Source: Microbacterium testaceum (GTDB taxonomy: Bacteria; Actinomycetota; Actinomycetes; Actinomycetales; Microbacteriaceae). Taken from it: a stretch of DNA of 64,000 nucleotides. The position numbers and the translations under genes were made by a program. The notes below the pieces were generated by a model. That model worked only from the letters and a program-made list of their open reading frames with translations, made no database searches and was not told the DNA's origin. Shown here one piece after another: positions 4,159 to 7,356 of the stretch (position 1 is the stretch's first letter; each line of letters starts with the position of its first letter). The stretch covers positions 1 through 64,000 of the forward strand of contig NZ_LDRU01000037.1 in assembly GCF_001476285.1 (NCBI RefSeq), in the 5' to 3' direction.

Positions 4159-6210
4159 TCAGCCCGTCAGGCCCCGACGCTCCAGCAGTGGCTGGATCTC
4201 GGCATCCCTGCCCCGGAAGTCGCGGTACGCGGCGAGCGGATCGGCCGACCCTCCCACACCGAGGAGCCGCTGCCGGAAGCGGTCGCCGTTGTCGCGCGTG
4301 AGACCGCCGTTGTCGCGGAACCACTCCACCGTGTCGGCATCGAGCACCTCGCTCCAGATGTACGAGTAGTAGCCCGCGCTGTAGCCGCCCGAGAACACGT
4401 GCGCGAAGTAGGTCGAGGCGTAACGGGTGGGGACAGCCGGGTTGTCGAGGCCGATGTCGGCCAGCGCTGTCGCCTCGAACTCCGCGACGTCGATGTCGGC
4501 GGTCGCCTCGTCGACCGACAGGCCGTGCCACGCCTGGTCGATCCAGGATGCCGCGAGGTACTCGCTCGTCGCGAAACCCTGGTTGAAGGCCTCTGACGCG
4601 TGCAGCCTCTCGACGACGTCCGCGGGCAGAGGCTCATCGGTGTCGATGTGACGGGCGTAGTTCGTGAGGATCTCGGGCCAGAGGATCCACATCTCGTTGA
4701 CCTGGCTCGGGAACTCGACGAAGTCGCGGTGGACCGCGGTGCCGGCGAAGTGCGGGTAGGTGACCGTGGCGAACAGCCCGTGCAGGGCGTGACCGAACTC
4801 GTGGAAGAGCGTCGTGACCTCATCGAGCGTGAGCAGAGTGGGCGTGCCCGGCGCCGGCTTGTTGACGTTCAGGTTGTTGACGACGACGGGAGCCGTCCCG
4901 CGCAGGGCCGACTGGGTGACGATCGAGTTCATCCAGGCGCCGCCGCGCTTGGAGTCGCGCGTGTACAGGTCGAGCAGGAACAGTCCGAGTTCACTGCCAT
5001 CGGCGTTGTGCACCTCGAACACGCGGACGTCGGGGTGGTAGCCCTGCAGATCGTGACGTTCGGTGATCGTCACGCCGTACAGCTGTTCGGCCGCGAAGAA
5101 GACGCCGTCGCGGAGCACGCGCTCGGCCTCGAACCAGGGGCGCAGGGCCGCGCGATCGAGGTCGTACTCGGCCGCGCGCACCTTCTCGGTGTAGAAGGCC
5201 CAGTCGTGGGCTTCGATCCGGATGCCGTCGGCGTCGGCGATGCGCTGGAGCGCGGCCTGCTCCGACCGGGCGTTCGTCGCAGCGGGCACGGCGAGGCGAC
5301 GCAGGAGGTCGTGCACGGTCTGAGGGGACCCGGCCGTCTGATCGGCCAGGATCGCGGCCGCGTGAGACGGGTACCCCAGGAGTGCCGCGCGCTCGGCGCG
5401 GAGGCGCACGATCTCGCGGAGGACCTCGCGGTTGTCGTGCTCGTTGCCACGTGCGCCACGCGCACGCGATGCCTCGAGCAGCCGGCGCCGGCTCTCGCGG
5501 TTCGCGAGGGACGCGAGGTAAGGGTGTCCGGTGTAGAGCGTGAGGGTGACGACGTACCGACCGTCGAGCCCGCGGGCGGTGGCGGCCTGTGCGGCGGCCG
5601 ACAGCTCGCCCTCGCTCAGTCCGTCGAGTTCGGCGGCATCGTCGAACACGACGGCGAGATCGTTGGTGTCCGCGAGGAGGTTCTTCTCGAACGTCGTCGT
5701 CAGGACCGAGAGACGCTGGTTGAGGTCGGTGAGCCGCTTCTTCTGCTCGTCGTCGAGACCGGCACCGGCCAACGACATCTCGCGGTGGTGACGCTCGACG
5801 AGGTGGCGGCTCTCGGCATCCAGACCCAGCTCATCGAGCTGCGCGTGAAGAGCCGAGATGCGGGCGAAAAGGGTCGCGTCCAGCTGGATGGCGTCGCTGT
5901 GGGCGGCCATGAGCGGCGCGAGCTCTTCCTCGACGGCCTGGATCTCGGCCGTGCCGTCCGCCGACGACACCGTGTAGAACGTGCGGGCGATGCGATCGAG
6001 CAGAGCCCCGCTGCGTTCGAGGGCCATCAGGGTGTTCTCGAAGGTCGGCGCGTCGGTTTGCGAGGTGATCTGCTCCACCTCGGCCCGGTGCGCGGCGAAC
6101 GCCTCGCGGAACGCGGGCAGGTAGTGCTCGGCGCGAATGCTGCCATAGGGCGGCAGATCGTAGGGGAGAGCGGGCGGTGAGAGGAGGGGATTGGTCACGG
6201 CATCCGTCAT
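4159..6210 (-). CDS. dcp: M3-family oligopeptidase / peptidyl-dipeptidase Dcp
   Basis: A 683-residue zinc metallopeptidase of family M3. The zinc site HEFGH lies in the middle to C-terminal part (TTLFHEFGHALHGLF), with the downstream Glu (FVEFPSQVNEMW) typical of the family. Length matches Dcp/oligopeptidase A (about 680). It is expected to degrade short peptides in the cytoplasm; no signal peptide is seen. The ATG at 6210 is chosen because TACGCT lies exactly 6 nt upstream (6217-6222), the leaderless pattern seen at other genes here. It is divergent from the ArsR-type gene and shares an 81-bp promoter region with it. Confidence 0.93.
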   Translation of the reverse strand: MTDAVTNPLLSPPALPYDLPPYGSIRAEHYLPAFREAFAAHRAEVEQITSQTDAPTFENTLMALERSGALLDRIARTFYTVSSADGTAEIQAVEEELAPLMAAHSDAIQLDATLFARISALHAQLDELGLDAESRHLVERHHREMSLAGAGLDDEQKKRLTDLNQRLSVLTTTFEKNLLADTNDLAVVFDDAAELDGLSEGELSAAAQAATARGLDGRYVVTLTLYTGHPYLASLANRESRRRLLEASRARGARGNEHDNREVLREIVRLRAERAALLGYPSHAAAILADQTAGSPQTVHDLLRRLAVPAATNARSEQAALQRIADADGIRIEAHDWAFYTEKVRAAEYDLDRAALRPWFEAERVLRDGVFFAAEQLYGVTITERHDLQGYHPDVRVFEVHNADGSELGLFLLDLYTRDSKRGGAWMNSIVTQSALRGTAPVVVNNLNVNKPAPGTPTLLTLDEVTTLFHEFGHALHGLFATVTYPHFAGTAVHRDFVEFPSQVNEMWILWPEILTNYARHIDTDEPLPADVVERLHASEAFNQGFATSEYLAASWIDQAWHGLSVDEATADIDVAEFEATALADIGLDNPAVPTRYASTYFAHVFSGGYSAGYYSYIWSEVLDADTVEWFRDNGGLTRDNGDRFRQRLLGVGGSADPLAAYRDFRGRDAEIQPLLERRGLTG

Positions 6211-6216
6211 CCGTCC

Positions 6217-6222
6217 AGCGTA
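6217..6222 (-). promoter_or_regulatory. -10 element of the M3 peptidase gene (leaderless type)
   Basis: TACGCT on the minus strand sits 6 nt before the ATG, which would place the transcript start at or next to the start codon. Confidence 0.55.
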
Positions 6223-6243
6223 GTCATCTGCCTCATGCCCGGA

Positions 6244-6289
6244 TGCAAAGAAGTATTTGCATAGATGCGATTGCAAAGGTATCTTTGCA
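6244..6289 (+). promoter_or_regulatory. Double palindromic operator before the ArsR-type regulator
   Basis: Two 18-bp palindromes lie 28 bp apart: TGCAAAGAAGTATTTGCA (6244-6261) and TGCAAAGGTATCTTTGCA (6272-6289, perfect 7-4-7). The second overlaps the probable -10 hexamer TATCTT (6280-6285), which is 6 nt from the ATG at 6292. A bound repressor would block its own promoter. The region is AT-rich against its GC-rich surroundings and is shared with the divergent peptidase gene. Confidence 0.8.
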
Positions 6290-6291
6290 CT

Positions 6292-6882
6292 ATGAACACG
6301 GAGTCGCCCCGCGAACGCATCCTCGACGCCGGCGCGCTGCGCGCCCTCGCCCACCCCCTCCGCGTGCGCCTGTTCGATCTGCTCAGCCAGTACGGGGCTC
6401 AGACGGCGAGCGGACTGGCCGCGCTGACGGGGGAGTCCACAGGAGCCACGAGCTACCACCTGCGTGCACTCGCGCGTCACGACCTCATCCGCGAGGTCGA
6501 AGGGCGCGGAACCGCGCGAGAGCGGTGGTGGGAGCGTCCCGCCGGCGCCGTCACGCTGTCGGACCCCGAACTCGCGAAGACCCCCGCCGGTCGAGCCGTA
6601 CAAGAGGTCGTCGCGAGCGAGACGTTGACGCTGCGACAGGAGCAGCTCATGCACTTCGTGCGCCACGGGTGGGACGAGACCGCTGAGTGGCGGGACGCCA
6701 CCCTGATCTCCACCGCCAGCGCGAGGCTGACAGCCGAACAGATGGCCGAGCTCAGCGCTCGGCTACAGACCGTGATCGACGAGACGGTCGCCCGATACCG
6801 AGACCAGACCGGAGACGCTGTGCGCGTGGTGTCGGTGCGCGCCGACGTCTTCCCCCTGCCCATTCAAGGAGCCGCATCATGA
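6292..6882 (+). CDS. ArsR-type winged-helix transcriptional regulator
   Basis: A 196-residue protein with an N-terminal winged helix-turn-helix (residues about 15-80: ALAHPLRVRLFDLL, SGLAALTGESTGATSYHLRALARHDL, with a wing rich in basic residues). The C-terminal 110 residues form helices (RLTAEQMAELSARLQTVIDETV). This layout is common for HTH_20-type ArsR proteins placed beside transporters, although none is adjacent here. Autoregulation is likely, because paired palindromes cover its promoter. It overlaps the next small gene by 4 bp (ATGA). No metal-binding cysteines are visible, so the signal is unknown. Confidence 0.88.
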   Translation: MNTESPRERILDAGALRALAHPLRVRLFDLLSQYGAQTASGLAALTGESTGATSYHLRALARHDLIREVEGRGTARERWWERPAGAVTLSDPELAKTPAGRAVQEVVASETLTLRQEQLMHFVRHGWDETAEWRDATLISTASARLTAEQMAELSARLQTVIDETVARYRDQTGDAVRVVSVRADVFPLPIQGAAS

Positions 6883-7100
6883 CCACCCTGACGACTTCCC
6901 TGCCCACCGCGCCCCGCGCGCTCGCGCCGACCGCTCTCGACCGCGCACTGATCGCTCTCTCGCGGGCGCTCGCGCGAGCCGCCGAACACCGCATGCGGGC
7001 GCGCGAGAATCGAGCCCTCACCACCCGCACGCGCGACACCGCCCGTGATCGCGGGCGGTCACTGACCGCGGAGGCGGAGTTCACGCTCCGCATCCGCTGA
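6879..7100 (+). CDS. Small arginine-rich hypothetical protein
   Basis: A 73-residue, Ala/Arg-rich protein that overlaps the preceding regulator gene by ATGA and so is translationally coupled to it. The region RALIALSRALARAAEHRMRAR predicts an amphipathic basic helix. It has no signal peptide or membrane segment. Function is unknown. Linkage to the regulator suggests it is under the same TGCAAA operators. It ends 7 bp before the convergent gene at 7108. Confidence 0.65.
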   Translation: MTTLTTSLPTAPRALAPTALDRALIALSRALARAAEHRMRARENRALTTRTRDTARDRGRSLTAEAEFTLRIR

Positions 7101-7107
7101 CGTCGAC

Positions 7108-7356
7108 TCAGGCGAACTCGTCGCCCTCGTCGTAGCGCACGACGACCTCGCCCGCGGCATCCTGCGTCACGACGACGCCGGTGTCGAGCTCAGCCACCGG
7201 ACGGCCTTCGAGGAAGGTCAGCGTCCACCGCGGCGCGGGGGCGCTGAGCCCGTCGGGGTTGAGAGCCTCCTCGACCGCGGCGATCTGCGCGTGGAGCACC
7301 TCGGGAACAGCCTTCGGCGGCTCTTCGCGGGCGGTCCAACGGGTTCCGAGCTGCAT
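7108..7356 (-). CDS. Small conserved hypothetical protein coupled to valS
   Basis: An 82-residue soluble protein starting at an ATG that overlaps the valS stop (ATGA). The sequence has an N-terminal helix (VLHAQIAAVEEAL) and a C-terminal beta-rich part (WTLTFLEGRPVAELDTG, EVVVRYDEGDEFA). It is not recognised as a named family. Co-translation with valS is evident; whether it has any role in tRNA charging is unknown. Confidence 0.7.
   Translation of the reverse strand: MQLGTRWTAREEPPKAVPEVLHAQIAAVEEALNPDGLSAPAPRWTLTFLEGRPVAELDTGVVVTQDAAGEVVVRYDEGDEFA

Follow-up and report, generated by a model that had tools for sequence, protein, structure and literature searches.

In the stretch of Microbacterium testaceum DNA analysed here (64,000 nucleotides, hereafter the window), the gene of an ArsR-like winged-helix regulator is preceded by four TGCA boxes set at an exact 14-bp step, and this array is most probably the operator of an autorepressor, i.e., a row of tandem dimer sites for the regulator that is encoded directly after it. 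The grid, its linkage to the regulator gene, its covariation with the recognition helix of the protein and its register with the promoter were computed directly, and the evidence throughout is comparative.

Palindromes and the 14-bp grid

The initial annotation of this DNA had described two 18-bp palindromes whose starts lie 28 bp apart, and both are present (6244-6261 and 6272-6289), with the common pattern TGCAAA-N6-TTTGCA. They are real but not isolated, being the visible parts of a larger array of 14-bp period that is also found in relatives; in the window, direct reading places its TGCA boxes at 6244, 6258, 6272 and 6286. The features of the locus are as follows.

4159-6210, minus strand: M3-family peptidase gene, divergent; best NCBIfam model peptidyl-dipeptidase Dcp, below cut-off
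6244-6289, no strand: candidate operator array of four TGCA boxes (direct reading and comparison)
6244-6261, no strand: unit A, the distal 18-bp inverted repeat, TGCAAAGAAGTATTTGCA; 9 of 10 half-site letters
6257-6262, plus strand: putative -35 hexamer TTGCAT, within box 2 (read directly; the box position is conserved)
6258-6275, no strand: unit B, the weaker middle unit, between boxes 2 and 3; 7 of 10 half-site letters
6272-6289, no strand: unit C, the proximal 18-bp inverted repeat, TGCAAAGGTATCTTTGCA; 10 of 10 half-site letters; contains the putative -10
6280-6285, plus strand: putative -10 hexamer TATCTT, central in unit C (read directly, and from the register seen in relatives)
6292-6882, plus strand: regulator gene, 196 aa, HTH_20/ArsR-like winged helix, recognition helix with TSYHLR
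6879-7100, plus strand: 73-aa ORF starting at an ATG that overlaps the stop codon of the regulator gene (ATGA); matches nothing in Pfam or NCBIfam

The proximal palindrome does cover TATCTT and does end 2 bp before the ATG at 6292, as had been noted. It had also been called perfect, which is true of its 7-bp arms but not of the central GTAT, where only the middle TA pairs; 16 of its 18 positions are symmetric, and 14 of 18 in the distal palindrome. The palindrome pattern does not occur in 100 dinucleotide shuffles of the window, and the genome search that had been proposed for it, when run over the whole 3.9-Mb genome, returned these two sites only. A chance origin of the array was set aside on the shuffles, on this genome-wide uniqueness and on the in-gene control described below. 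A regulon elsewhere in this strain was likewise set aside, after a search of the whole genome for the two-unit pattern with up to three mismatches had returned only this locus and one other match, which has 3 mismatches, lies on C26 and is without an intact TGCA box.

Conservation of the array and its link to the recognition helix

In a set of 167 homolog promoters, from regulators with the helix TSYHLR or MSYHLR, pairs of TGCA are found 14 bp apart in 154, 28 bp apart in 131 and 42 bp apart in 91, each other distance from 5 to 45 bp occurring in at most 15 (the next commonest being 32 bp, in 15). A control stretch inside the gene has no TGCA pairs at 14, 28 or 42 bp in the 167 homologs. Within the genus, a regulator match at E 1e-20 is present in 143 of 198 Microbacterium genomes (two of them with fragments only), and the exact motif occurs in 115 of these 143 versus none of the 55 genomes without the regulator (compared across tables; Fisher test); the remaining 28 genomes with the regulator are without the exact palindrome. 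The same pattern read backwards, used as a control, matched in 11 of the 198. Among the matches listed, all 75 exact-motif sites, from 69 genomes, lie 3-92 bp before a regulator match. The initial annotation had named absence of the motif before orthologous genes as the outcome that would speak against its reading, and these counts give the opposite picture.

Ninety genus loci, comprising the 30 best-ranked regulator matches and 60 chosen by hand rather than drawn at random, were read with a box defined as at least 6 of the 8 letters of TTTGCAAA; the set excludes L001, L002 and L093-L097, which are repeats of the window and, in one case, a chance hit. All 90 have at least two boxes at 14-bp steps, versus 3 of 1,800 shuffles, none of which exceeds two, and the runs consist of 2 boxes in one locus, 3 in 25, 4 in 52, 5 in 11 and 6 in one. 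Under a stricter definition of the box, at least two were found in 24 of 25 family loci from other genera. The compared loci are related by descent and not independent, so that p-values computed on them overstate the case.

Named public genomes were also searched by DNA alone, using a three-box pattern and no protein query, which gave at least 119 stretches. Among those listed, a homolog is found no more than 250 bp away for 29 of the 46 with a GC content of at least 62%, leaving 17 without one at that distance, versus 0 of the 73 with a lower GC content, the pattern therefore being unspecific under 62% GC. The 29 homolog-linked stretches include Streptomyces, Nocardia, Micromonospora, Kribbella, Cellulomonas, Brevibacterium and Arthrobacter. 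Of the 17 unlinked ones, L128 and L190 from Streptomyces break off, by eye, directly behind an ATG with which such a protein begins, L211 lies 302 bp from a homolog, and L131 and L210 look by eye like unrelated repeats. In yet another (L217:2000-2200), the array seems by eye to be joined directly to an apparent remnant of a regulator coding sequence, as after an internal deletion.

When 200 homologs were scored for helix and array, with the DNA-scan loci left out and an array defined as at least two boxes on the grid, an array accompanied the TSYHLR helix in 153 of 162 loci (9 of the 162 being without one) versus other helices in 9 of 38, and five of these nine have MSYHLR. The 60 weak homologs taken alone give 21 of 27 versus 4 of 33. 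The box letters follow the recognition helix of the regulator, and in some relatives with other helices the pitch is unchanged while the letters differ. Of the 26 lags compared, 14 scores highest, alone or in a tie, at 18 of 30 VSYHL-type loci (untied at 14, below another lag at 12) and at 7 of 8 CSFHLR loci (untied at 2, below another lag at 1). The half-site letters are CAAAG for TSYHLR and, by eye, [T/G]AAAG for CSFHLR and CACAAG/GCGCAA for VSYHL. The ten loci of CSYHLR relatives, tested in genomes that overlap with those behind the VSYHL and CSFHLR tests, have no 14-bp peak, their best lag being 24, and the pitch is therefore not universal in the wider family. By eye, these CSYHLR relatives (L267-L269, L273, L284 and L295-L299) have a palindrome like TGTGAAACATGTCTTTCACA with the likely start codon inside it, and no 14-bp array.

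The strain's own genome has 24 HTH_20 matches, 19 of which, the regulator itself included, were examined with the lag-14 score; L327 reaches 11 and L335 reaches 10, each equal to the maximum of its own shuffles. The window's own operator scores only 9 in the same test (shuffle maximum 10), which means that this alignment-free test is insensitive for single promoters.

Promoter register, unit architecture and rival readings

The putative -35 and -10 hexamers of the window are spaced by 17 bp, and the -10 is separated by 6 nt from the ATG at 6292. A strict promoter scan listed no promoter at the locus, because each hexamer has only 4 of the 6 letters of the sigma-70 consensus; the promoter is thus proposed from its conserved position and not from that scan. 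For the leaderless, autoregulated promoter claimed in the initial annotation the support is comparative: an operator-like array stands before the gene itself in orthologs, and the promoter inside it is apparently leaderless. In 125 of 166 arrays the next ATG is preceded at 4-9 nt by a TAnnnT, which on the grid starts at +7 in 104 of these, at +8 in 14, at +6 in 6 and at +5 in one, suggesting that the -10 is in a mostly fixed register with the boxes. In type I arrays, such as that of the window, 2-8 nt separate the last box from the next ATG (115 of 166), in type II 16-21 nt (40 of 166), and 11 arrays have neither spacing; the consensus -10 of type II is found one 14-bp step further, past the last box.

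Edge boxes were scored by a criterion that treats both halves alike in 160 arrays, 6 of the 166 being excluded because it leaves them with just one box. At the upstream edge, the box retains the right half only in 123 arrays, both halves in 36 and the left only in one, and at the downstream edge the left half only in 132, both in 15 and the right only in 13. Internal boxes also lean to the right half (right only in 179 of 321, both in 108, left only in 34), so that the upstream asymmetry alone counts for little. In the 142 arrays of at least three boxes, T at -2 has a frequency of 0.35 in first, 0.91 in internal and 0.97 in last boxes, and A at +4 one of 0.99, 0.86 and 0.15, respectively. Such half-box frequencies at the array ends fit units that lie between boxes. 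The array is, in addition, polar, its promoter-proximal part being made of nearly full inverted repeats and its upstream part being closer to direct repeats. At units 3-4 of type I arrays and 2-3 of type II, an average of 1.3-1.5 of the 3 letters is present in the CTT arm and one of 2.3-2.75 in the AAG arm; the few further-reaching arrays have CTT averages of 1.67-2.15, but 0 in the single sixth unit. Symmetric dimers leave this polarity unexplained, and a head-to-tail packing is a possible alternative. Occupancy of alternate units only, also considered, found no support in the unit scores.

From these data we infer direct binding, dimers, repression and a ligand. The regulator, probably as a dimer, would bind inverted half-sites TGCAAAG/CTTTGCA centred in neighbouring boxes, and successive binding units would be centred 14 bp apart with one TGCA box common to neighbours, the promoter-proximal units being the fullest inverted repeats and the upstream units mostly direct repeats (TTGCAAAG). 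With the -35 and the -10 lying inside the array at a fixed register, bound protein would block RNA polymerase, the regulator thereby repressing its own gene and the coupled small ORF. By analogy with relatives in which an MFS gene lies behind the regulator or divergent from it, the signal is probably a small compound removed by the exporter; the family would then repress itself, and the exporter where there is one, until released by the compound.

Other readings of the boxes were weighed against these tandem units. In the picture of the initial annotation, two separate dimer palindromes 28 bp apart would be the whole operator and the middle boxes mere by-products. The outer units are indeed strong in the window (9 and 10 of 10) around a weak middle one (7), and neighbouring units that share a TGCA may exclude each other; runs of 3, 5 or 6 boxes in 25, 11 and 1 of the 90 genus loci, together with mean unit scores in which strong, weak and strong do not alternate consistently, nonetheless make this picture unlikely. 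It is quite unlikely that each 8-bp palindrome TTTGCAAA is itself the binding unit, with one dimer per box in the manner of MetJ: the symmetric TTGCAA core of internal boxes and a box number not limited to even values would agree with it, but the end boxes keep mainly their inward half, and many V-helix relatives have, by eye, one full box between half boxes.

Control of the divergent M3 peptidase gene, which the initial annotation had thought possible, found no support, and we consider it very unlikely that the array serves mainly this gene. A divergent peptidase homolog does occur in 75 of the 90 genus loci (beyond 250 bp in two of them), and in 73 loci its start is 14 to 82 bp from the array; this distance is, however, variable, the other 15 loci keep the array without a peptidase homolog within about 1500 bp upstream, and the arrays are in register with the -10 of the regulator. 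That a DNA-binding protein other than the regulator uses the boxes can hardly be entertained, given that none of the 55 genus genomes lacking a regulator match contains the exact motif and that the box letters track the recognition helix of the regulator.

The regulator, its neighbours and known systems

The regulator scores above the gathering cut-offs of Pfam HTH_20 (PF12840; 39.6 bits, cut-off 27) and HTH_5, ArsR (PF01022; 26.2 bits, cut-off 22), and below the curated NCBIfam cut-offs for ArsR/SmtB metalloregulators (NF033788; 36.5 bits, cut-off 55), Rv2640c-type ArsR (NF041413; 23.1 bits, cut-off 155) and SdpR autorepressors (NF033789; 19.7 bits, cut-off 100). Classical ArsR proteins have cysteine metal ligands, some family members using others; the 196-aa sequence contains no cysteine. 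The label of ArsR-type regulator is thus apt for the ArsR-like winged helix (HTH_20), but the protein is not a typical metal-sensing ArsR, a candidate that was rejected on the missing cysteine and the metalloregulator score. An AlphaFold model built with 29 sequences (pLDDT 92.1, pTM 0.84) consists of a winged helix and a helical C-terminal half. In helix 50-62, T53, S54, Y55, H56, L57 and R58 are invariant in the 29 proteins, which is not independent evidence, as these proteins, the window's own excepted, come from loci chosen by the array pattern. The best full-length structural match is Kfla_6221 of Kribbella flavida (PDB 4g6q), functionally unknown according to the title of the entry, with a Foldseek E of 1.3e-05 (chain B) and a VIA Z of 11.9, rmsd 4.8, 169 residues aligned and 15% identity (chain A). 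Other structures tied with it in Z cover mostly the winged helix, and 4g6q is not listed by the sequence profile of the regulator at E 0.01.

A small ORF of 64-81 aa is found at or near the regulator stop in 84 of the 90 genus loci by a permissive ORF search, often with the ATGA overlap. The small ORFs that were scanned have no Pfam or NCBIfam match, and their product may be a partner of the regulator. In the window, a convergent ORF that ends at 7108 comes after the small ORF, and the gene beyond it resembles valyl-tRNA synthetase (valS). In relatives, an MFS protein (MFS_1, 90 bits, cut-off 33.4; best NCBIfam match an H+ antiporter subfamily, below cut-off) is encoded downstream of the regulator on the same strand in 46 of 92 genus, 4 of 25 other-genus and 2 of 31 DNA-scan loci, and likewise in 11 of 23 top class loci and 1 of 60 weak homologs (generally with a flank of 600 bp only). 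Seven loci (L127, L167, L173, L211, L259, L263 and L264) have an opposite-strand MFS match of 26-33% identity from 88-495 bp upstream, which puts the array between the two genes. No MFS exporter was found in the window's genome (best match 29%, E 3e-4), where it appears to have been lost or never present. On the other side of the array, the divergent peptidase gene also looks leaderless, a minus-strand TACGCT standing 6 nt ahead of its ATG (window 6205-6225), and CAGCCTA/CAGCGTA recurs by eye at the peptidase start region in many relatives.

Cooperative binding to tandem repeated boxes is known from the met boxes of MetJ, with a pitch of 8 bp, and from the direct repeats of BldC, with one of about 9 bp; folds and pitches both differ from those of the present array. 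LugJ of Staphylococcus lugdunensis, a winged-helix repressor of export and immunity genes, is described in the available part of the source as a dimer in solution that binds a palindrome and is released by lugdunin, the compound exported (PMC11980582). The LugJ dimer was modelled with PDB 4G6Q as template, the structure that also ranks first among the fold matches to the regulator model; in contrast, its palindrome as given in the primer table has by eye no 14-bp grid, and the available text describes no array, LugJ and the regulator being likened here without sequence comparison (PMC11980582). LugJ may be seen as a measured example, on the same structural template, of the exporter-repressor logic proposed for the regulator family. 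Rv2034, an ArsR-like autorepressor, is reported in the available text to bind as a dimer to inverted repeats that are separated by 4 bp and lie near the start codon; this spacer is comparable to the N4 between the 7-bp arms in the window, although a single palindrome and no iterated array is described there, unlike at the window's locus (PMC3338718). No description of a 14-bp array was found in the parts of the open-licence literature that were searched.

As a tentative generalization, which we regard as possible rather than probable, an actinobacterial HTH_20 branch might assemble as polar cooperative arrays with a fixed 14-bp pitch, i.e., about one and a third DNA turns, and with half-site letters that change with the recognition helix. 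If so, this fixed geometry with an evolving alphabet would be a natural recognition code, in an operator architecture not found in the literature searched. With some two hundred loci compared, there would be many natural variants in which the 14-bp spacing is held while helix and half-site change together, and what governs winged-helix recognition, and cooperative packing at a pitch that departs from the 10.5-bp helical repeat, could be tested directly. In GC-rich genomes, the array would also be a DNA-only tag for such regulators and sometimes for an adjoining exporter. Its presence before many actinobacterial relatives suggests an unusual way for a repressor to pack onto DNA.
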